Shown in pieces: positions 1,910-15,746 of a DNA stretch of 35,787 nt. This stretch comes from a virus. Each line of letters starts with the position of its first letter. The first letter of the stretch is position 1. The notes beneath the pieces are model-generated. The model searched no databases, was not told where the DNA came from, and saw nothing but the letters and a program-made list of their open reading frames with translations. The DNA is taken from positions 1 through 35,787 of the IMG/VR virus record IMGVR_UViG_3300024054_000039; one strand, given 5' to 3'. Both the position numbers and the translations under genes were made by a program.

Positions 1910-4154
1910 TTTTTATTATTTCCTCGACAACGCCGACAACTTCCTTTTCAACCTCGCCCTTTATTTGGCTAGTCTGCTTTCTTACCTCGGCTTTTATTTT
2001 TTGCTCGGTTATAATATGCTCATAGCTTTTATCTCCCTCTAAAACTGGTGTAATAACGCAACGGCAATTTGAGTGCAAGGCTCCTGCTGTAATTGGCATA
2101 TAATCTATTGCCATTGACGACCCGTCCAACCCGACCAAACTATCGCCAATACCGAAATAGTTTTTGCCAATTGGTTGGACTACGCCGTGCATAGCTCCAC
2201 ACCAATTACAAACCCTCTCATCAATGGCGGTCCACCATTGCTTGCCGACAACGACGCCCGACTGCTTCCAACCCTCCTCAAGCCCGAAGTTCGCAGATCG
2301 CATAGTTTCCGAGCGGGCAATCCTTTCAGCCCTATAAACTTTCATATCGTCAAACAAAGCGTTAATGCGGGCGGTCATTTTATCAATGCCCTCACCCTCT
2401 TTTTCTGCCTCTGCTAGGCTCGCTCTCAATTTCTGGTATGTGCTATCGACAATAACCTTACTTGCCTTGCCGACATTTCGCTCAATAAAGCTCTTAACTC
2501 TCGGGGCTTCAATGTCAAAAAGCCTCGAAGTCCCGACTATTTTCAATGCTTCCTCACCGCTTGATAGGATATTTGCCATTTCTGCCTCGGTCAAAATGCT
2601 CACGATAGCGTCCAAAGAGGTTTCTTTGTTCAATAATTCGCTCGCTTTTGCCTTAGTTTCCCCGATATTTCCCGACTTTTTAATGGTCAAATTATGGATA
2701 ACCTCGTTGGCTTGACGCTCAAATTCATCAATAATTTCCCGTTTAATGTATTCCTCGGTCGTTTCAGTCCGTTTCATCAGCCCCTTGTGGATTTCCTCGC
2801 CGATATGTTCAAAGTCCTCGGTGGCTAAAATGCCCCCAATTTCGCCCGCTAGCTTGTTTATCATCTTCCCGTCGGCTTTAGGCTCGTTAGCGTCGCCTTG
2901 CCCGTCCTGTGGCTCACCGTTTGGCTCTGGGTCGGCGGTAGGCTCTGGTTTTTCGCCAGCCATACCGATTGGCGTCATTCCCATACCGACAAGCAACACG
3001 TCCCCGCCGTCAACTGGGTCGTAGCCCTCCATTTCTCTGACCTCATTTACGGTCAACCATTTATTTACGGCGATATTGTATTCGTCAATCTTCGCTTTTC
3101 TGTCCTCTGGCACGGGGTCTTCCAAAACAAACTTTACGCCAAGGGTCGGATAATATCGGTTAATATAAAATTCATTCAAAACATCAACAAAATCTTCCAT
3201 TTTAGGCTTGACAGTAAAGCGTAAAAAGTGCCATAAAGCGGACTGGCTGTTGCTCAAATTGACGTCTTCCGAAATCATCAATCCTTTCGGGACGCCGAAT
3301 ATGGTAAAAATCTCATCTCTACCAAAACGCCTCTGCTCGATAAAGTCCATTTCCTTTTGGTTGAAGTTCCATTTGCTCATTTTCAGCCCGCCCGACAGAA
3401 TAGCTGGCTTGTGTGCCTTGTCAGCCCCCTTGTGCTTACGCTCCCATTTTTCAATGGTTTGGTTATATTTTGCGTCGTCCATTTGCCCGTCATATTCCAA
3501 AACAATGTCTGGGCGGGCTGAATTTTTGAAAAACTTATTGTTCCATTTCTTGATTTCGTTGTCGGTGTCGATTGCCTCCGCTCCTGCCTGCGTAGATCCG
3601 ACTGCTCCTAAAATAGACTTCGGGTTAAAATCCAAAAACGGTATAACCTCCTCGGGCTTAAATTCTATCTGCTTGCCGTTTATGGTGTAAATATATTTCA
3701 AAATAGGCTTTGAAATGTCGCCCGAATTAACAATTTTGACCAAATCTGGCCTTAAAATCCATATTTCTGCGGGCTTGTCGCTCTTTTCAAACTTCGGGAT
3801 ATACCAGAAACACTTGCCTAAAAGCTCCAAATAGCTCTGCGTTGCCTGTAAAAGCTTGCTCCAAGTCTGCAAAGAGTTCGGTCTATCAAGCACTCTCATA
3901 ATTTCCGCCTTTTCCTTGCCCTCATATTCCCTATCTCCTTTCATCAGCTCAATCTGCATTGTGGAAAACTCTTGAGCAATTAACTTGATACATCGGAAAA
4001 CCCACCCCTTATACTGGGATAGGCTATCGTTGTTAAAATGAAAGTCGCCCCCGTTAAAATTTACGTCTTTCCAAGTAAAATCTACCTCATCACTAAAGCT
4101 CTTTGCGACTGTTTGCTCCTTACCTCGGTTAAGTATTTTGTCTAAAAATCCCAT
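1902..4154 (-). CDS. Portal protein fused to MuF-like head morphogenesis domain
   Basis: 750 aa, almost twice the length of a plain portal. Residues 1 to about 400 look like an HK97/SPP1-type portal (early YKGWVFRCIKLIAQEF, then FGRDEIFTIFGVPKGLM). After an acidic Pro/Gly linker and a helical region, residues about 560-705 match the MuF/SPP1 gp7 minor head domain: ARSETMRSANFG, W..A.DERVCNWCGAMHG (Cys649, Cys652) and HSNCRC near 694-699. In most phages portal and MuF are separate genes. The portal forms the dodecameric DNA channel and MuF proteins are packaged minor head components, so the fusion would place about 12 MuF copies at the vertex. The start is preceded by ATAAAATATG and no Shine-Dalgarno site. 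First gene after the late leader/terminator. Confidence 0.92.
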   Translation of the reverse strand: MGFLDKILNRGKEQTVAKSFSDEVDFTWKDVNFNGGDFHFNNDSLSQYKGWVFRCIKLIAQEFSTMQIELMKGDREYEGKEKAEIMRVLDRPNSLQTWSKLLQATQSYLELLGKCFWYIPKFEKSDKPAEIWILRPDLVKIVNSGDISKPILKYIYTINGKQIEFKPEEVIPFLDFNPKSILGAVGSTQAGAEAIDTDNEIKKWNNKFFKNSARPDIVLEYDGQMDDAKYNQTIEKWERKHKGADKAHKPAILSGGLKMSKWNFNQKEMDFIEQRRFGRDEIFTIFGVPKGLMISEDVNLSNSQSALWHFLRFTVKPKMEDFVDVLNEFYINRYYPTLGVKFVLEDPVPEDRKAKIDEYNIAVNKWLTVNEVREMEGYDPVDGGDVLLVGMGMTPIGMAGEKPEPTADPEPNGEPQDGQGDANEPKADGKMINKLAGEIGGILATEDFEHIGEEIHKGLMKRTETTEEYIKREIIDEFERQANEVIHNLTIKKSGNIGETKAKASELLNKETSLDAIVSILTEAEMANILSSGEEALKIVGTSRLFDIEAPRVKSFIERNVGKASKVIVDSTYQKLRASLAEAEKEGEGIDKMTARINALFDDMKVYRAERIARSETMRSANFGLEEGWKQSGVVVGKQWWTAIDERVCNWCGAMHGVVQPIGKNYFGIGDSLVGLDGSSMAIDYMPITAGALHSNCRCVITPVLEGDKSYEHIITEQKIKAEVRKQTSQIKGEVEKEVVGVVEEIIKNA

Positions 4155-6979: not shown

Positions 6980-7555
6980 TTATTTTTTCTTCATTTTGTA
7001 GCTTTCCTTGTTAATGAAGAATTTATTAAAACACTCGGGGCAACAAACCTCCATTAGGTTTTCTTCTGCCCTCTCGGTTAAATTACTAAATTTCGTGTCT
7101 AGGTTTTCTTTCGCCCCCTCGAGATCTACGCCCTTTACGTCCCGAGCCCATACGGTTTTCTCAATCATCTCTTTTAAGTTCTCGGCGAAAAACTCCTGCA
7201 TAATCCCCAAATCCTCAATTTCCCGCAATTCGATTTTCAAGTCCTCTGTCCATTCTGCGATTTCGTTGGTCTTATTGTCGGCAATACGGTATTGCTTGAC
7301 TTTCTGGTCTGGCATATCGAGCGAAATAATCACCTCTGCCTCGGAATATCCAAGCTCGAGCAACGCCTTATAGCGAGTATGCCCCGCAATAATTACGTTT
7401 TTCTTATCGACCACAATGTATTGGTTATATCCGTAAAGCTCAATCGAGCGTTTTACGACATCGACCGCCTTGTCGTTTTTTCTCGGATTTCGCCAATACG
7501 GTTTAATGTCCGATAATTTCAGAATTTTTACCTCTGTCTTGTATGGTTTTTTCAT
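6980..7555 (-). CDS. ParB-like nuclease-domain protein with C-terminal zinc knuckle
   Basis: 191 aa starting at MKKPY, where the upstream AAAAATATG fits the genome's start pattern (a start four codons earlier is possible). Residues 8-75 match the ParB/Srx-like domain: ILKLSDIKPYWRNPRK and the phosphate-binding loop IIAGHTRYKAL (55-65). The C-terminus has CCPEC, likely a metal site. Such ParB-like proteins often precede phage terminase genes and may act with DNA-modification enzymes; CTP binding or nuclease activity is not shown here. A second ParB-like protein lies at 7852-8499. Confidence 0.85.
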   Translation of the reverse strand: MKKPYKTEVKILKLSDIKPYWRNPRKNDKAVDVVKRSIELYGYNQYIVVDKKNVIIAGHTRYKALLELGYSEAEVIISLDMPDQKVKQYRIADNKTNEIAEWTEDLKIELREIEDLGIMQEFFAENLKEMIEKTVWARDVKGVDLEGAKENLDTKFSNLTERAEENLMEVCCPECFNKFFINKESYKMKKK

Positions 7556-7559
7556 ATTT

Positions 7560-7850
7560 TTATACACGGCGAAACCTAACTACGCCTAAATTATTTGTTA
7601 ATTTCATTATATCCTTTGGCAGATTTTCGTTAAAGATAATCTTAATACCGTATAAATACTTTGCGACGCCAGTTATTGCGTGTCCCTCGGTTTCGCTGTT
7701 TTTTATTTTCTGAAAAAAGTCGTTTAACTTTTCAGAATTGTGCTCTACTTCCACCAAATACAAATTATCGTCTTTTCTCATTTTACCGATTGCCTCGAGT
7801 ATCTGGTCGAGTTGCAATTCGGTGTATTTATTTTTTGAGTGTGTGTGCAT
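7560..7850 (-). CDS. Hypothetical protein between two ParB-like genes
   Basis: 96 aa, mixed alpha/beta and soluble, starting after AATAATATG. The N-terminus is helical (YTELQLDQILEAIGKMRK) and the middle is acidic. It is packed 1 base from the upstream ParB-like gene and 4 bases from the downstream one, so it is probably co-translated with them. No family recognised. Confidence 0.7.
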   Translation of the reverse strand: MHTHSKNKYTELQLDQILEAIGKMRKDDNLYLVEVEHNSEKLNDFFQKIKNSETEGHAITGVAKYLYGIKIIFNENLPKDIMKLTNNLGVVRFRRV

Positions 7851-7851
7851 A

Positions 7852-8499
7852 TTATTTATTAAGCTCGGATTTCCTCAAAGCAATTTGCTTGTCGGTTTCC
7901 CAAGACTTTTTATATTCAACGCTTTCAAATAATTTTGAAAATCCCGTAATGTGTTTGAGCCTCAAAAGTTCTTCTTCCTCAAGCCCGATTTCGTTGCAAA
8001 TCTGCTCGTCCGACCAGCCATTATCCAACATAGAGAAAACCATTGAGCCCATACCGTCAACGCTGTGCTTTCCTCTGGCTCGATTGTGGCGGACGGTTGA
8101 CGCCATACGGTCGTTAATATCTTTCTCGAGAACGACGACGGGCAAAAAGCCTTGATTGCGGTCGTAAATATCCTTATTCGTTTTCATTGTCAAATAGCGG
8201 TGAAAGCCGTCAACAATGACATACTTGTCTTGCTCGGCGTCGTAGATCGCCACGACTGGCTGGGTGTATCCGTCGTGCGAGATTGACGTGTGCAATAACT
8301 TCATCTCATTGGTGGCGACGCTGTTCGGATTGTAGTCATTGGCAATCACTTTATCAATCGGGATACGGCGGGCGAAGTCAACGGGATTTCGCAACGGGTC
8401 GCAATTATCGAAAATGAATTTGCGGATAGAATTTAGGAAAGCGATTTTGTCGTCCGCCCCGTCATACGCTTGTTTTATTTTATCAAAAAGTTCTGTCAT
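7852..8499 (-). CDS. IbrB-like ParB-domain protein
   Basis: 215 aa. Residues 45-115 carry a ParB-type domain, with RIPIDKVIANDYNPN and the loop VDGFHRY (96-102). A helical region follows, including a helix-turn-helix-like stretch (SDEQICNEIGLEEEELLRL). It overlaps by 4 bases the PAPS-reductase-like gene, the same pairing as IbrA/IbrB in E. coli strain ECOR-9, where the pair raises expression of prophage immunoglobulin-binding proteins. The biochemical role is unknown; by analogy with Dnd systems a nucleic-acid modification or regulatory role is possible. Confidence 0.85.
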   Translation of the reverse strand: MTELFDKIKQAYDGADDKIAFLNSIRKFIFDNCDPLRNPVDFARRIPIDKVIANDYNPNSVATNEMKLLHTSISHDGYTQPVVAIYDAEQDKYVIVDGFHRYLTMKTNKDIYDRNQGFLPVVVLEKDINDRMASTVRHNRARGKHSVDGMGSMVFSMLDNGWSDEQICNEIGLEEEELLRLKHITGFSKLFESVEYKKSWETDKQIALRKSELNK

Positions 8500-9605
8500 A
8501 TTTTTAGTTTTATACCGTGTTCTCTGGCGTAAAATTGAGCCACAGTATTATTGAAATTACTTAATTTAGTGCATTCAATGTCGTTGGCGATTATCGAATT
8601 GGTTACGACCTTGGCTGCCTTTTCCATAGCCTCCTTATCTCCAGCGAAAATTTTATCAAAGTTTCTGATATAACGGCGGAAAGTCTTTTTGTGGGCTTCC
8701 TCGGTCAACAATTTATCGAATAAAAAATCCCGATACTCAAGCCAGCTTTTGAACATAAAGGGCAGTTTTTTCGGGAAAAAATCAGCCGACCCCATTTTCC
8801 CTGCCGTGTCTATCCCGTGAAGACGCTTTGTCAATCCATTGTAAAGCTCTTTGTCAACCTCCTGCAAATAAAAAAGCGACTGCACCGCCGTTTCGTGGTG
8901 GACGTTAGACACCCGCATATTTTGGACGGGGACGCCCAATCTGTATTGATAATCGTAAATCTCGTTATATTTCCAGCCGTTATCGTGTATCGCTTTCCAA
9001 ATATCAGTAAAACTCCAATCGTAAAGCGGATAAAAAGTGTATTGCCCGACTTTCTTGTCTAGCACTTTCCCCCAAGTTATCCATTTGTAGGTCTGACGCT
9101 CGGTCAAAGCCATACTTCTCGACGGGCTTTCTTCGGCACGAACGCCCGATATATAGCAAAACTTCTCGCCTTTATACAAAGTCCTGCCGATTGCCGTAAA
9201 AAGCTCGGCAAATCTATCAGTCCCAAAAATGTTTTCCTTGATTGAGTTCGGCTCTTTTTCCCGCAACCATTCCGCCCCGTCTTCCCAACAATGAAGCCAG
9301 CTATGCTTATGACTTGTGGCGTTCAAAATTTTAATCTGGCATTGTATCCAAATAGGATTAACGCCCTCTGTCGCCATAACCTCACGGACTAGCTCAATCG
9401 TCTTATTCCATTCAGCCTCTTGGTCTACAAAAATTACGTCCAGATTACGACCCCGCTTTTTGCACTCGTTCAAAACTAGATTAAACGTTACCGTGCTGTC
9501 TTTCCCGCCAGAAAAACCGACGGCGACGTGCTCAAACTCGTCTAGGATATAATTTATCCGCTCGATTGCTTTTTCATAGACATTTTTATTGCTATAAAAT
9601 TTCAT
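8496..9605 (-). CDS. IbrA-like PAPS reductase-family protein
   Basis: 369 aa starting at MKFYS after AAAAATATG; a longer frame upstream exists but overlaps the neighbour. The PP-loop SGGKDST (32-38) places it in the adenine-nucleotide alpha-hydrolase / PAPS-reductase superfamily. YISGVRAEESPSR near the middle and a Trp/Tyr-rich segment (FYPLYDWSFTDIWKAIHDNG) are typical of CysH/DndC relatives. The long C-terminal extension matches IbrA/DUF3440 proteins. It may adenylate or transfer sulfur to a nucleic-acid target, but no [4Fe-4S] motif is evident and the reaction is unknown. Paired by overlap with the IbrB-like gene. Confidence 0.88.
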   Translation of the reverse strand: MKFYSNKNVYEKAIERINYILDEFEHVAVGFSGGKDSTVTFNLVLNECKKRGRNLDVIFVDQEAEWNKTIELVREVMATEGVNPIWIQCQIKILNATSHKHSWLHCWEDGAEWLREKEPNSIKENIFGTDRFAELFTAIGRTLYKGEKFCYISGVRAEESPSRSMALTERQTYKWITWGKVLDKKVGQYTFYPLYDWSFTDIWKAIHDNGWKYNEIYDYQYRLGVPVQNMRVSNVHHETAVQSLFYLQEVDKELYNGLTKRLHGIDTAGKMGSADFFPKKLPFMFKSWLEYRDFLFDKLLTEEAHKKTFRRYIRNFDKIFAGDKEAMEKAAKVVTNSIIANDIECTKLSNFNNTVAQFYAREHGIKLKI

Positions 9606-9883
9606 ATTTTTGCCCTGTTCAAAATTATTGTTTCCTCGACTGGGTCGCCGTATGTCCAATACTTCTTGCCCTCAAACTCAAAATAAACAAAAACTTTTTT
9701 ATAAAATCTTTGCTCATACCCATAATCTCGGATAAATTGCGTAATTTCCTCGAACAATTTTTGGTCTGGACGGCTCAATTTGTCCTTGACCAAATACTCG
9801 TGCGGGGCTGTGGTGGCGTATGTCTTGGCGAATATCCATTGATTACGCTCGATAAATTTTACGTATTTTTCTGGCAATTCCAT
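9602..9883 (-). CDS. Conserved hypothetical protein in IbrA/IbrB cluster
   Basis: 93 aa, overlapping the IbrA-like gene by 4 bases (ATGA). Aromatic-rich motifs stand out: FAKTYATTAPHEY in the first third and KKYWTYGDPVEETIILNR at the C-terminus. I associate this pattern with small proteins encoded beside phage PAPS-reductase genes, without a known function. It also overlaps the methyltransferase gene by 25 bases, so three neighbouring genes are translationally linked. A partner subunit role is an inference. Confidence 0.75.
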   Translation of the reverse strand: MELPEKYVKFIERNQWIFAKTYATTAPHEYLVKDKLSRPDQKLFEEITQFIRDYGYEQRFYKKVFVYFEFEGKKYWTYGDPVEETIILNRAKI

Positions 9884-10573: not shown

Positions 10574-10577
10574 ATTG

Positions 10578-10648
10578 TTGCTCGGGCGGGAATTGAACCC
10601 GCAACTGTGGCTTATGAAACCACCGTGATACCGTTTCACTACCCAGCT
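10578..10648 (-). tRNA. Degenerate tRNA with CAT anticodon (Met or Ile2)
   Basis: The cloverleaf has U8-A9, D stem GTGA/TCAC with GG in the loop, anticodon stem GTGGT/GCCAC with loop TTCATAA (anticodon CAT) and T stem GCGGG/CCCGC with loop TTCAATT. The acceptor pairs AGCTGGG with CCGAGCA, leaving mismatches at 1-72 (A:A) and 5-68 (G:G). No CCA is encoded. Three G-C pairs in a row, as in initiators, are absent, so it is elongator Met or lysidine-type Ile(ATA). The two acceptor mismatches raise the possibility of a decaying or tRNA-like element. Confidence 0.75.
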
Positions 10649-12220: not shown

Positions 12221-12568
12221 TTATTGAATTAACTTTTGATTATTTCCTAGCTTGAGATTTACCCCCTCGAAAATATCTTTTAATTTAACAAATTGTGGCA
12301 ACTCTTTTCTATACCCTCCGTTAAAGCCATACTTTTCGTTCTGCTCGTTTTCGTGCTTTATCCGATTAAATTCCTCGTAATAAAATTTTAGCCTGTCCAC
12401 GTCCTCGCAGATCCCGACAAAAAAGCTCGGGTTAATTATTCCTCGACGCACTTTTACGGCGTGTCCGTTTGTAATTCCGCTTAAAACGCTCGCCACCTCG
12501 TCTTCATCAATTTGGACGTCGCCGTTTTTAATGCTCATTCGGACTAAATATGCTTTTGGTTTTTCCAT
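12221..12568 (-). CDS. Hypothetical protein following the replication initiator
   Basis: 115 aa, starting 4 bases after the initiator-like gene. The middle shows alternating hydrophobics (HAVKVRRGIINPSFFVGICED) suggesting a beta sheet, then a charged helix (RLKFYYEEFNRIKHENEQNEK). No motif assigned. The context suggests a replication accessory role, which is inference only. Confidence 0.65.
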   Translation of the reverse strand: MEKPKAYLVRMSIKNGDVQIDEDEVASVLSGITNGHAVKVRRGIINPSFFVGICEDVDRLKFYYEEFNRIKHENEQNEKYGFNGGYRKELPQFVKLKDIFEGVNLKLGNNQKLIQ

Positions 12569-12572
12569 ATAG

Positions 12573-13331
12573 TTATAATCCGATTATTTCTTTACCCTTT
12601 GTTTTGGCAAAAACCTGCCGATATTCGACCGATTTCATTACCCAAGTAGCCAACCTCCGCCCGACCTCAAAGGTTTTCTCGGTTTCCCAACGCTGCTTTT
12701 TCCCGCTCGGCGTCAATTCAGTCCAGTAATTTTTGAATTTGACCATTTCAGATATTGCCCTCGGGCGTGGCATTCCTTTGCTTTCCAAATAATTAACCGC
12801 CTTAGTTTGCAGATCGTCCTCGTTGTTAAAAAACTTAATGGCTTTTTGTTTTGGGGTGTCCTCTAACTCTTTATTACTATTATAATCAGTATTGCTATTA
12901 TTATCTTTATTACTTATGGTGTCGGTTTTCGCACCGTGCGGTTTCTGCACCGTGCCTAAATCGCACGGTGCGGTTTCCGCACTCTGGCTAATGTTAGCTA
13001 ATAATTCATACTCTAATCTGCCGTTATTTAATTTATTCCTCTTTATGTATCCGACGTTTTCCAGTTCTGACAATCCAGATAATACCGCCCTCCTGCCGTC
13101 GCTTGATTGTCTTGCTATCCTGCCAGCCTCGAAATCCCACCCGTCTGGCTTGGAAAATAAATATGCGTATAGCCCCTTTGCCTTAAACGACAATTTTTCG
13201 TCGTTTAATAGCTCATTAGAAACTTGGGTAAACCCAGTTCCGTGTTTTCTTAATGTCGACATAAATTTTGTGCCAATTACGGAAGAACCAACGCTGGGTC
13301 TAATCACGTCCCCTCGCTGATTTTCCGCCAT
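12573..13331 (-). CDS. Replication initiator-like winged-helix protein
   Basis: 252 aa. Residues 32-115 form the winged-helix domain often found in phage replication proteins: FTQVSNELLNDEKLSFKAKG, LYAYLFSKPDGWDF and GLSELENVGYI. An Asn/Ser/Asp-rich linker (about 140-165) leads to a helical C-terminal domain (FFNNEDDLQTKAVNYLESKG...ATWVMK) that could bind a helicase loader, as in lambda O or DnaD-type proteins. The start ATG at 13331 is preceded by a structured leader and its own promoter, so expression appears separately controlled. No helicase or polymerase gene accompanies it. Confidence 0.75.
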   Translation of the reverse strand: MAENQRGDVIRPSVGSSVIGTKFMSTLRKHGTGFTQVSNELLNDEKLSFKAKGLYAYLFSKPDGWDFEAGRIARQSSDGRRAVLSGLSELENVGYIKRNKLNNGRLEYELLANISQSAETAPCDLGTVQKPHGAKTDTISNKDNNSNTDYNSNKELEDTPKQKAIKFFNNEDDLQTKAVNYLESKGMPRPRAISEMVKFKNYWTELTPSGKKQRWETEKTFEVGRRLATWVMKSVEYRQVFAKTKGKEIIGL

Positions 13332-13349
13332 AACTGGCGATTAGTAAAT

Positions 13350-13468
13350 TGTTAAAAAGCTTGCCAACTAAAAACCCTCAATTTCCAGAGCAATAGCTTG
13401 TCATATTGCCAGCCCCTTGCGGGACTACGGGCTGAAAATTAAGGGTTGTTAGCCGACAAGCTGTGCAT
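13350..13468 (-). ncRNA. Structured leader RNA with pseudoknot and competing outer stem
   Basis: A 16-bp helix pairs 13432-13447 with 13373-13388 (two G:U pairs). Inside are a 5-bp hairpin with a GCAA tetraloop (412-425) and a 6-bp hairpin GCAATA/TATTGC (390-409). The latter's loop can pair over 7-8 bp with 13455-13462, forming a pseudoknot. The same 5' strand can instead pair with 358-363 (AGCTTG/CAAGCT), extended by CTAAC/GTTGG, closing the element next to TTTTT. The two states are mutually exclusive, as in an attenuator or riboswitch. No known class was recognised; this 158-nt gap contains no gene. Confidence 0.65.
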
Positions 13469-13474
13469 AACTTA

Positions 13475-13503
13475 ATCTTACCACATTATTTAGTTTTCGT
13501 AAA
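13475..13503 (-). promoter_or_regulatory. Extended -10 promoter for the replication leader
   Basis: A -35 TTTACG (13498-13503) and -10 TAAGAT (13475-13480) are separated by 17 nt, with TGG directly before the -10. The -35 lies in the end of the upstream coding sequence. The start point would be near 13468, so the leader structure begins within a few bases of the RNA 5' end. Confidence 0.7.
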
Positions 13504-13693
13504 GCATTTGTTTTCCACCGTTTTCATACTCTATCAACACGTTTTTCCACTTTTCCTCTCTTTTTAATATAGCGGGGATATTCTCGATTATGTTGCCTAT
13601 CGTCGATCTGCTCCAAGTTTTTACCCGATTATTACAACATTTCAATTTACATTCCGCCGTTATGTAGGTGATTTTATTGCGGTTTTGCGTCAT
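13490..13693 (-). CDS. Hypothetical basic protein
   Basis: 67 aa after AAAAAATATG, with three cysteines in AECKLKCCNNR and a basic segment that may bind nucleic acid. It overlaps the upstream gene by 20 bases and its end contains the -35 of the replication promoter. No family recognised. Confidence 0.6.
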   Translation of the reverse strand: MTQNRNKITYITAECKLKCCNNRVKTWSRSTIGNIIENIPAILKREEKWKNVLIEYENGGKQMLYEN

Positions 13694-14369
13694 ATTTTTT
13701 GCTTAAATTCTCAAACCGCTCGATTATCCCTGTCAAATTCTGCTCGCCGATAATCCTCTGCACCATTTTATAGTCCGCATATTCCTTGGTCAACTTCGCT
13801 CTGTTCTCTGCCTCGAGCCTTGAACAGCCTTTTTTATCAATTATTTTTGTTATTTCAGCATTGAAAAGCTGGCTTTTATAAACATAGTATCGGCTCAACA
13901 AAAGCTCATAACTCAAAAATTTAGTAGAGGTATCAAGCCAGTATGACGGCGGGATAGGTTTTTTATTTTTATCTTGGTTGTGTATGTTGTGCCGTAGATT
14001 GTTTAATTCGGTTTCAATATAATTCACGACCGACATTGCTTTTTCTTCCTCGTCCTGCGTCCACTCAATGCCCGCCATAAGCTCTTCCGCCGACGGCGGG
14101 GCGTCAGCCTCGTTTATTATCTTACCGCCGAATACGGCGATTAAGTTATTAACCAGCCCCTCGCCAATTTCCTGCTCACTCTGTAAAAACTCGGTTAGCT
14201 CGGCTGTGGTTTCGTCTGTCACCAAACCGCTCGCCAACATTTTCTCGAGCATAGGCTGTAATTTTTTCTGGTGATAAGCTTCACGGATTTTAGACAATGG
14301 CTGTCCGCAGATCTCGTGTTCTTTTGTTTCCTCGACCTTTTCCTCGGTCAGTTTTTTTGCTCTTGGCAT
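13674..14369 (-). CDS. Hypothetical helical protein, early region
   Basis: 231 aa starting at MPRAKK (14369); an ATG four codons earlier is less favoured because of the longer overlap. Residues 30-80 are a helical, acidic region (PMLEKMLASGLVTDETTAELTEFLQ) and the C-terminal half is helical with many Tyr (YELLLSRYYVYKSQLFNAEI). It looks like a coiled-coil or scaffolding-type protein involved in recombination or replication, but no motif supports a specific function. It overlaps the upstream small gene by 22 bases. Confidence 0.65.
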   Translation of the reverse strand: MPRAKKLTEEKVEETKEHEICGQPLSKIREAYHQKKLQPMLEKMLASGLVTDETTAELTEFLQSEQEIGEGLVNNLIAVFGGKIINEADAPPSAEELMAGIEWTQDEEEKAMSVVNYIETELNNLRHNIHNQDKNKKPIPPSYWLDTSTKFLSYELLLSRYYVYKSQLFNAEITKIIDKKGCSRLEAENRAKLTKEYADYKMVQRIIGEQNLTGIIERFENLSKKYDAKPQ

Positions 14370-14494
14370 AGTTTTAAGCATTTATTACAAGGATTTTCTT
14401 TGACGGTCGCCGTCATTGTCGCCGAAGTAGCGACGTCAATCATCAGTAAAACCCAGATAACAAATAAAATTGAGAAAATAATTAAGTTTTTCAT
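14348..14494 (-). CDS. Small secreted or membrane-anchored CxxC protein
   Basis: 48 aa, too short for ordinary gene finders. Residues 2-21 are hydrophobic (NLIIFSILFVIWVLLMI), followed by a short polar tail with NPCNKCLKLC. It overlaps the upstream stop (ATGA) and runs 22 bases into the next gene. The topology suggests an inner-membrane anchor with a small metal- or thiol-binding tail outside. Function unknown. Confidence 0.6.
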   Translation of the reverse strand: MKNLIIFSILFVIWVLLMIDVATSATMTATVKENPCNKCLKLCQEQKN

Positions 14495-14664
14495 ATAAAT
14501 TCGTGGTCTAATTTTTGCTCGCCGTGCTTTTTACAAATCCCTATCGCCTTTACCTCGCCAAGCCCATTGATTAAAACCGATTTTACTTTTACGAATTTAC
14601 CGCACACGTGGCAATTATTATGTATCCACACGTCGCCGTCGTTTTTAGTTTCGTATCCAATCAT
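14491..14664 (-). CDS. Small zinc-binding protein
   Basis: 57 aa. Potential ligands are CHVCG in the first half and CKKHG near the end, the spacing of a small zinc ribbon. It overlaps both neighbours by 4 bases (ATGA at each end), indicating coupled translation. No known function. Confidence 0.65.
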   Translation of the reverse strand: MIGYETKNDGDVWIHNNCHVCGKFVKVKSVLINGLGEVKAIGICKKHGEQKLDHEFI

Positions 14665-14972
14665 ACGATTATTTTTTCCCTTACTAGGTGGCGACCTAAT
14701 TCATAAGGGATTTTGGCGTGTATGGCATAGGCATCGGAAAACCTAAATTTTAATTCTCTAAGCCTGTTTTCAATCCGGCTTTCAAACATAAACGGATATT
14801 TTTTGTATAATTCGCTCATCCGTGCCGTAGCTTCATAGCCGACAAATTCTCCGTATTGTTCACGCTGAAAGTCGCTTGCACGCCACCATTTTGCAAATCG
14901 GTAATCTTTCCCCGACATATAATCCCTAAACATAATCACCAGTATTTTTTCGTGTTGTTTTAATTCCGACAT
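14661..14972 (-). CDS. Hypothetical protein of the recombination module
   Basis: 103 aa, rich in Arg/Lys/Tyr. The pattern FRDYMSGKDYRFAKWWRASDFQ, then YEATARMSELYKKYPFMFESR, resembles a winged-helix fold in which the final strands (ENRLRELKFRF) form a wing. It directly follows the exonuclease gene and may bind DNA in the same pathway. No firm family match. Confidence 0.65.
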   Translation of the reverse strand: MSELKQHEKILVIMFRDYMSGKDYRFAKWWRASDFQREQYGEFVGYEATARMSELYKKYPFMFESRIENRLRELKFRFSDAYAIHAKIPYELGRHLVREKIIV

Positions 14973-14975
14973 AGA

Positions 14976-15746
14976 TTATAGTGTGGCTTCGTAGTTTTTA
15001 ACAAATAATTTTGTCTTAAAAACCAAGAAGTCTTTATCAACGTTTTTAATTTCTTTGGCTGAAAAATCGCCCTTGTTGCGGTCGATATAAAATATCCAAC
15101 CGTTGCCGTATTTACGCCCGCTTTCCTCGGTGTCGGCGGATTGATAAGCCGATAATTGATAGCGGTCTTTCGGAAATTCTTTTTTTGGAATTTCCTTGAC
15201 TGTCTTAAAATCCCCTGCGTGGAATATCTTGTGATCTTCGTCCGCCATTGTAAAAGTGCAGTCCATAATTCCGATATATTCGTGCGTAATTGAATAAACA
15301 ATTTTTTCACTCTCTACAAATCTTATCCCGTGAGCCTCTACCATTTTTAGAAACGAAAGGACGCCGTTTAACACAAGCTCGTCTTCTGGCAGTTTCGGGT
15401 TTTTGCCTTTAATATGCCCCTCAATCCAGCGGTGGATAGACGACCCTACGTTTGCCAACTCTTTTCTGTGTGTTTTCCAAGCACCACGCTCGCTCTCTAT
15501 CACAATGTCGTCGATAACCTCGCCGTCCTTATACCGCCTTTTAAGATTATCAATGGTGATACCGACCCCCCAAGAGATAATCCCGTCGAAGTTTACGTCT
15601 AATACGCTCGTTACTGAATACTTTGCTCTTTTCCCATTCACTTTGTATGTGTGCTTGTAGTCGTTATATTCAACCTTTATTTTCCCGCCGTAAAGCTCTA
15701 CCTCGACGACATCGCCCTCTCGGGTTATATTTCTTGTCGTCTTCAT
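14976..15746 (-). CDS. PD-(D/E)XK exonuclease (RecB/lambda-exo-like)
   Basis: 256 aa. The order of motifs is that of RecB-family nucleases: GSSIHRWIEGHI (His105), EYIGIMDCTF (Asp162), HAGDFKT (Asp179, Lys181) and YQLSAYQ (Gln197). It lies 1 base downstream of the Rad52-like gene. The pair is a standard phage recombination module in which the exonuclease resects an end and the annealase pairs the exposed single strand. Length is normal for Cas4/lambda-exo relatives. Confidence 0.9.
   Translation of the reverse strand: MKTTRNITREGDVVEVELYGGKIKVEYNDYKHTYKVNGKRAKYSVTSVLDVNFDGIISWGVGITIDNLKRRYKDGEVIDDIVIESERGAWKTHRKELANVGSSIHRWIEGHIKGKNPKLPEDELVLNGVLSFLKMVEAHGIRFVESEKIVYSITHEYIGIMDCTFTMADEDHKIFHAGDFKTVKEIPKKEFPKDRYQLSAYQSADTEESGRKYGNGWIFYIDRNKGDFSAKEIKNVDKDFLVFKTKLFVKNYEATL

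Follow-up and report, generated by a model that had tools for sequence, protein, structure and literature searches.

A pseudoknotted, terminator-like leader RNA ahead of phage replication initiator genes: a candidate transcription attenuator

The window analysed here, a 35,787-nucleotide stretch of viral DNA (positions 1 to 35,787 of IMG/VR virus record IMGVR_UViG_3300024054_000039), carries its main genes on the minus strand. A 342-nt gap separates a 235-aa gene (13674–14381) from a 252-aa replication initiator gene (12573–13331, minus strand; HTH_36/DnaD-like, phrog_428, the HTH_36 match being weak), and the downstream half of this gap is occupied, on the minus strand, by a putative leader RNA for which the initiator is the first gene downstream. 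The upstream gene lies on the same strand as the RNA, with a promoter between the two. Elsewhere in the window, two ParB-like proteins and a PAPS-reductase-like protein adjoin the terminase (6980–7567, 7852–8499 and 8496–9659), and the phage carries a single tRNA-Met gene (anticodon CAT; 10577–10648, minus strand). Translation start in the host of this phage appears to be independent of Shine-Dalgarno pairing, since a Shine-Dalgarno-like motif precedes only 2 of the 33 window genes checked; many starts are preceded by A/T-rich AAAAAT.

The RNA is ~110 nt long, with a weak extended -10 promoter on its upstream side and the initiator on its downstream side. A 16-bp helix, b (5' strand 13432–13447, 3' strand 13373–13388, minus strand, with 13447–13432 pairing to 13388–13373), closes a three-way junction holding two abutting hairpins. 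Hairpin 1 (hp1; 13411–13426, minus strand) folds as AGUCCC-GCAA-GGGGCU with a GNRA tetraloop, and hairpin 2 (hp2; 13389–13410, minus strand) has the stem GGCAAUA/UAUUGCU and an 8-nt loop, UGACAAGC, that holds element a'. This a' (GACAAGCU, 13402–13395) is an 8-bp Watson-Crick match to element a at the 5' end of the RNA (AGCUUGUC, 13462–13455, minus strand), for which two partners are available: the hp2 loop, giving a pseudoknot, or a 3' outer strand. Pairing with the latter is part of a 14-bp outer stem between 13449–13462, which includes a, and 13358–13371 (a'', UUAGUUGGCAAGCU, minus strand), the competitor of a'. A first U-run, absent from the description given by an earlier sequence-only reading of this DNA, directly follows helix b (13370–13374, minus strand), in the same position as the U-run of two related leaders discussed below (L030 and L039), and a second, UUUUU, follows the outer stem (13354–13358, minus strand), with 22 nt between it and the initiator's ATG. 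The features that the sequence-only reading had named, namely the promoter, the 16-bp helix, the three-way junction, the GNRA hairpin, the loop-5' pairing, the outer stem and the TTTTT, are all present on the minus strand.

Folding of the minus strand gives a z-score of -6.18 for a 151-nt segment and -7.26 for the 123-nt RNA, with 0 of 200 shuffles as good in either case, whereas the plus strand of the same region reaches only -1.54. The plus strand folds poorly because the stems contain G-U pairs, which become A-C mismatches on the other strand, and this difference argues for selection on the minus-strand RNA; a DNA cruciform was rejected because of the poor plus-strand folding. The crossing pair formed by a (9 bp) and b (16 bp) scores 55.4 (a score for which sub-helices were split in the window), a value that none of 2,000 dinucleotide shuffles attained, and among the 374 scan segments of the phage the two overlapping ones that contain this pair take the first and second places.

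The promoter read from the sequence is of the sigma70 type (13475–13503, minus strand), with a -35 element TTTACG (13503–13498), a 17-nt spacer and an extended -10 element TGG-TAAGAT (13480–13475), i.e. TTTACG-17-TGGTAAGAT. The 17-nt-spaced extended -10 promoter proposed earlier is thus present, but it is weak, combining 8 of 12 consensus bases with the TG and being equalled by 24 of 300 shuffles; stronger promoters lie 19–29 nt before element a in five leaders of other phages (L002, L030, L045, L059 and L028). Transcription would be expected to start near 13468, and a DnaA-box match, TTATGCACA (13462–13470, minus strand), overlaps this expected start. In the window as a whole, DnaA-box matches (TTWTNCACA; both strands, between 3960 and 31982) number 10 against 4.0 expected, with 0 of 100 shuffles reaching 10. 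An origin role for the region is possible: a short transcript at a DnaA-box origin would open the DNA or prime replication, and the hairpin would end that transcript. Consistent with such a role are the neighbouring gene, an initiator, and the over-representation of DnaA boxes (TTATNCACA) near leaders of this kind (5 seen vs 0.51 expected, P=2e-4), where they lie beside the promoter in the window, L039, L040, L062 and L024. Most such leaders have no box, however, no iterons were found at the window locus, and a primer would not need an elaborate conserved pseudoknot, leaving an origin element improbable as an account of the RNA.

No close sequence relatives of the RNA were found by blastn against phages and plasmids, and a search of viral contigs for the exact pattern of the window pseudoknot returned three matches, all judged by eye to be chance matches inside coding sequence. 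A Rad52-like protein used as bait yielded no relatives, and the terminase alone one short contig. Relatives were sought via proteins, using the terminase together with the C-terminal domain of the initiator, and 82 leaders entered the analysis. This C-terminal domain is common to many phages whose initiators have quite different N-terminal domains; in whole bacterial genomes it was found in 1 of 380 from the phylum of a Collierbacteria metagenome-assembled genome (MAG) and in 1 of 395 from the phylum of a Bacteroidia MAG.

Folding of the interior of stem b identified one architecture in the window and three other phage contigs: L059, L039 (a Ca. Collierbacteria MAG contig) and L030 (the terminase relative G005). 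From 5' to 3' it consists of element a, stem b, hp1 abutting hp2, an hp2 loop complementary to a, the return strand of b, a U-run and the initiator; in L059 the U-run lies partly inside the stem. A strict descriptor of this architecture, with a of at least 7, matched 4 of 77 initiator leaders against 0 of 5,806 control windows and 0 of 3,040 shuffled leaders, counts that overstate significance because the descriptor was shaped on the four examples. The descriptor allows trimming of stems (a version without trimming missed the window), and over all 2.04 Mb of the loci it gave one further match with a of at least 7, a low-scoring, coding, chance match. The majority of the 77 leaders do not fit it, and eight named phages with related initiators showed no similar element.

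Element-wise alignment of the four members leaves 133 of 136 cells paired, a proportion partly built in, since pairing was the basis on which the elements were picked; the informative part is that 29 of 34 pair positions are doubly changed at near-random identity, the stems being 25–40% identical among the four. Compensatory changes, for which the sequence-only reading had proposed looking in related phages, are thereby found for both the 16-bp helix and the loop-5' pairing. The sole recurrent sequence is the hp1/hp2 junction ...UG|GC(A/G)..., with no gap between the hairpins in any of the four. The outer stem fared differently as a general feature, since the 5' strands of L059, L039 and L030 have no long 3' partner. 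On this sequence evidence, the window RNA is genuine and under selection, and its fold has been conserved; what is conserved appears to be a pseudoknotted terminator, and the explicit two-state switch, given the missing 3' competitor in the other three members, appears to be a feature of the window. The same data bear on the idea that this is simply the terminator of the upstream operon, its loop matching the 5' end by chance, which would account for a strong hairpin and U-run downstream of a same-strand gene (13674–14381); the crossing-helix score reached by 0 of 2,000 shuffles, the recurrence of the same pseudoknotted fold in the same slot and the promoter between the upstream gene and the RNA all stand against it, and it is given very little weight.

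Beyond the strict architecture, visual inspection of several leaders shows a promoter followed by two interleaved helices and a U-run ahead of the initiator. A crossing-helix detector, designed after inspection of the window, L002 and L020 and with its U-run rule relaxed from a stricter first version, gave 22 of 82 leaders a score that no more than 2 of 200 shuffles equalled, some of the 22 being near-duplicates. A score of at least 55 was reached by 13 of 76 leaders and by 5 of 2,679 control windows drawn from the loci of these leaders (p = 1e-17), an enrichment that leader composition may explain in part because the control windows are mostly coding DNA; composition is addressed by the per-leader shuffles. 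A stronger check comes from scans that were not pointed at the initiator: the sole above-threshold region in the 38 kb of G009, a terminase relative, lay directly ahead of an initiator of a different type, Phage_rep_O, and the single hit in L020 was likewise the initiator leader; L025 gave one hit, and L021, L010 and L026 (relatives or fragments) gave nothing above threshold. Individual loci add side observations. If the initiator is called as the longest ORF in L028 (3490), L065 (3466) and L045 (3490), its start is placed within the leader RNA, and the real start appears to lie downstream. In L029 (~3400–3560), a crossing-helix leader without a U-run is visible by eye before an ORF resembling a GIY-YIG-type nuclease, the detector result not being significant. 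In L036, short interleaved helices just before 3487 end at the initiator start codon, with 0 of 60 shuffles as good when the U-run rule is left out.

The N-terminal domains of the initiators that follow the RNA include HTH_36 and Lin1244_N as well as others, and this diversity weakens the earlier suggestion of an initiator-binding element. Autogenous feedback is common for replication proteins, and a site directly before the initiator gene would be well placed for it. The same RNA design nevertheless precedes initiators with different N-terminal DNA-binding domains; binding through the C-terminal domain that they share would still be conceivable, but a search with that domain did not find the Phage_rep_O protein of L024, and the chance that the RNA is an initiator-binding site is put as slim.

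A second form of leader is found in phages with Bacteroidetes-type promoters, where the sequence of the leader is recognisable and the loop of a 5' hairpin pairs with the loop of the terminator hairpin. This 7-bp loop-to-loop pairing is intact in 35 of 35 distinct leaders, rows that had been preselected for at least 7 nt of complementarity, and the three variable pairs have all changed compensatorily; in a pairing-blind model built because of this preselection, 49 of 49 high-scoring hits keep the loop pairing and chance hits do not. The initiators behind these leaders again carry several N-terminal domains, one of them (L120) being 36% identical to the window's over 150 aa. Against the covariance model of the Bacteroidetes-type kissing-loop leader (R1), the window gave no match at E <= 1, and the two forms share only the principle. 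In 296 genomes from the phylum of the Bacteroidia MAG, model R1 returned only weak, unconvincing matches (32–34 bits). The Bacteroidetes-type family (L070/L073/L085 and about 45 further leaders, L118–L230) is absent from Rfam.

In almost all of 42 Bacteroidetes-type leaders, the distance from U-run to start codon is 9–15 nt, and in the window it is 22 nt. No promoter would fit into so short a stretch, so that the initiator would have to be read through the RNA, making it a leader in cis. The same spacing weakens the earlier alternative of a stand-alone regulatory RNA, a small phage RNA acting in trans from its own promoter and terminator, whose position before the initiator would be incidental. 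Its own promoter, very stable fold and terminator-like end would suit such an RNA, as pseudoknots and closed ends suit a long-lived one; yet the start codon is too near the U-run for a separate promoter, the RNA keeps its place before the initiator even where the initiators are unrelated, and there is no conserved sequence to serve a common target, so that a stand-alone RNA is considered unlikely.

Comparison with the Rfam 15 covariance models found only the tRNA in the window, and nothing in the relatives except a sub-threshold SAM-SAH match in L040; neither the window RNA nor its counterparts were matched, in agreement with the earlier description of a promoter-driven, pseudoknotted, terminator-like leader RNA before the initiator that was not recognised as a known riboswitch or small RNA. 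The L040 match, a SAM-SAH riboswitch-like segment at 666–718, scores 23.9 bits against a gathering threshold of 40 and lies away from the leader. No description of such an RNA was found in open-licence papers. The closest known parallels include the transcription attenuators that govern replication initiators of plasmids of the pT181 and pIP501 type, which are set by antisense RNA from the opposite strand. As in the present RNA, the leader is structured, its terminator stands immediately ahead of the initiator, and the 5' strand has alternative partners (here, in the window), but the conserved pairing here is a pseudoknot and not an antisense target. A consensus scan of 12500–15000 detected no plus-strand promoter near the RNA, promoter-like sites occurring only near 13861, and an antisense attenuator was rejected on that ground.

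Among other structured RNAs, HDV-like ribozymes share interleaved helices with a hairpin between them, an assignment rejected because a' lies in its own hairpin loop, whereas the self-cleaving ribozyme has the 3' strand of P1 directly after P3, and because Rfam gave no match. The phi29 packaging RNA similarly combines a three-way junction with loop pairing, but that pairing is between molecules and its role is in packaging, not before an initiator, and the window RNA again has no Rfam match to it. The fluoride/crcB and ZTP/pfl riboswitches contain pseudoknots. In both, a structured leader overlaps a terminator (PMC2864571). A metabolite riboswitch was rejected for the RNA here, as only the ...UG|GC(A/G)... 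junction recurs in the four members and no conserved binding-core sequence is seen. The epsC motif is also a pseudoknotted RNA in a 5' leader (PMC2864571); leaders of the epsC/EAR type differ in standing before other genes, the fold here includes the terminator stem, and there is no Rfam match. The HK022 put RNA, about 70 nt with two stem-loops, lies at the start of a phage early transcript just downstream of PL (PMC9378689), and is alike in being a structured RNA at the start of phage transcripts. The put RNA, which binds the zinc-binding domain of the RNA polymerase beta' subunit, differs in that it suppresses downstream termination, with no terminator described inside it, whereas the window RNA is a three-way junction of ~110 nt that ends in a terminator-like hairpin.

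Taken together, the anatomy is consistent with an attenuator leader, with a same-strand promoter, albeit a weak one (24 of 300 shuffles as good), upstream of the structure, and with a terminator-like hairpin and the U-runs 13374–13370 and 13358–13354 read from the sequence before the coding region, no promoter intervening. The favoured reading, to which a probability of roughly 0.6 is assigned, is that the RNA would be a pseudoknotted attenuator, acting in cis on transcription of the initiator gene and retained through exchanges of initiator domains. It would form the 5' leader of the initiator mRNA, in which the long stem b, closing the three-way junction, would act as a terminator-like hairpin just before the start codon, and hp2 would present its 8-nt loop to the 5' end of the RNA. 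Initiator would be made only from transcripts that read through the structure, so that the attenuator would limit or time its synthesis. Large multi-branched hairpins in which stem b encloses roughly 40–60 nt depart from the textbook intrinsic terminator, and transcript start and end, termination and attenuation are all inferred, as is a tuning role for the pseudoknot.

Simulated folding of the growing chain suggests formation of a:a' at 75–90 nt and of b at about 95 nt; in the window, the outer stem would follow from 105 nt and drive a out of the loop. Since the loop-5' pairing would already exist when the 3' strand of the terminator emerges, it would most likely tune how often the terminator is completed, and in general the pseudoknot may delay, stabilise or expose the terminator. 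In the window, a:a' competes with the outer stem, and the further 3' strand would take the 5' end from the loop and complete a 30-bp terminator. The predicted energies are -55.7 kcal/mol for the outer-stem state, and -38.8 nested plus -10.6 for a:a' for the pseudoknot state, loop costs being ignored; the greater stability of the former suggests that the window would end as a completed terminator unless something holds the pseudoknot. The switch proposed by the sequence-only reading is only partly supported: the mutually exclusive outer stem is present in the window, and L059, L039 and L030 have no such competitor. A further and improbable elaboration is a dose-sensing, antisense-free control in which terminated leaders would accumulate as phage copy number rises and, acting in trans, base-pair with nascent leaders, the 5' strand joining the terminator loop; if true, a single RNA would combine the parts of regulator and target in the phages of several bacterial phyla.

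To our knowledge, how the amount and timing of the replication initiator are controlled in lytic phages is mostly unknown outside a few models, and this RNA probably represents a type of replication-gene control in phages that had gone unrecognised. The Bacteroidetes-type leaders, being compact and cleanly covarying, are directly testable and deserve a family entry of their own. Leader RNAs of this kind would explain false N-terminal extensions of initiators in gene calls, and offer a route to phage initiator genes, and possibly origins, in metagenomes. If the attenuator reading is true, these phages share a portable, unrecognised layer of control, fixed in the initiator slot while the sequence of the RNA and the DNA-binding domain of the initiator change.
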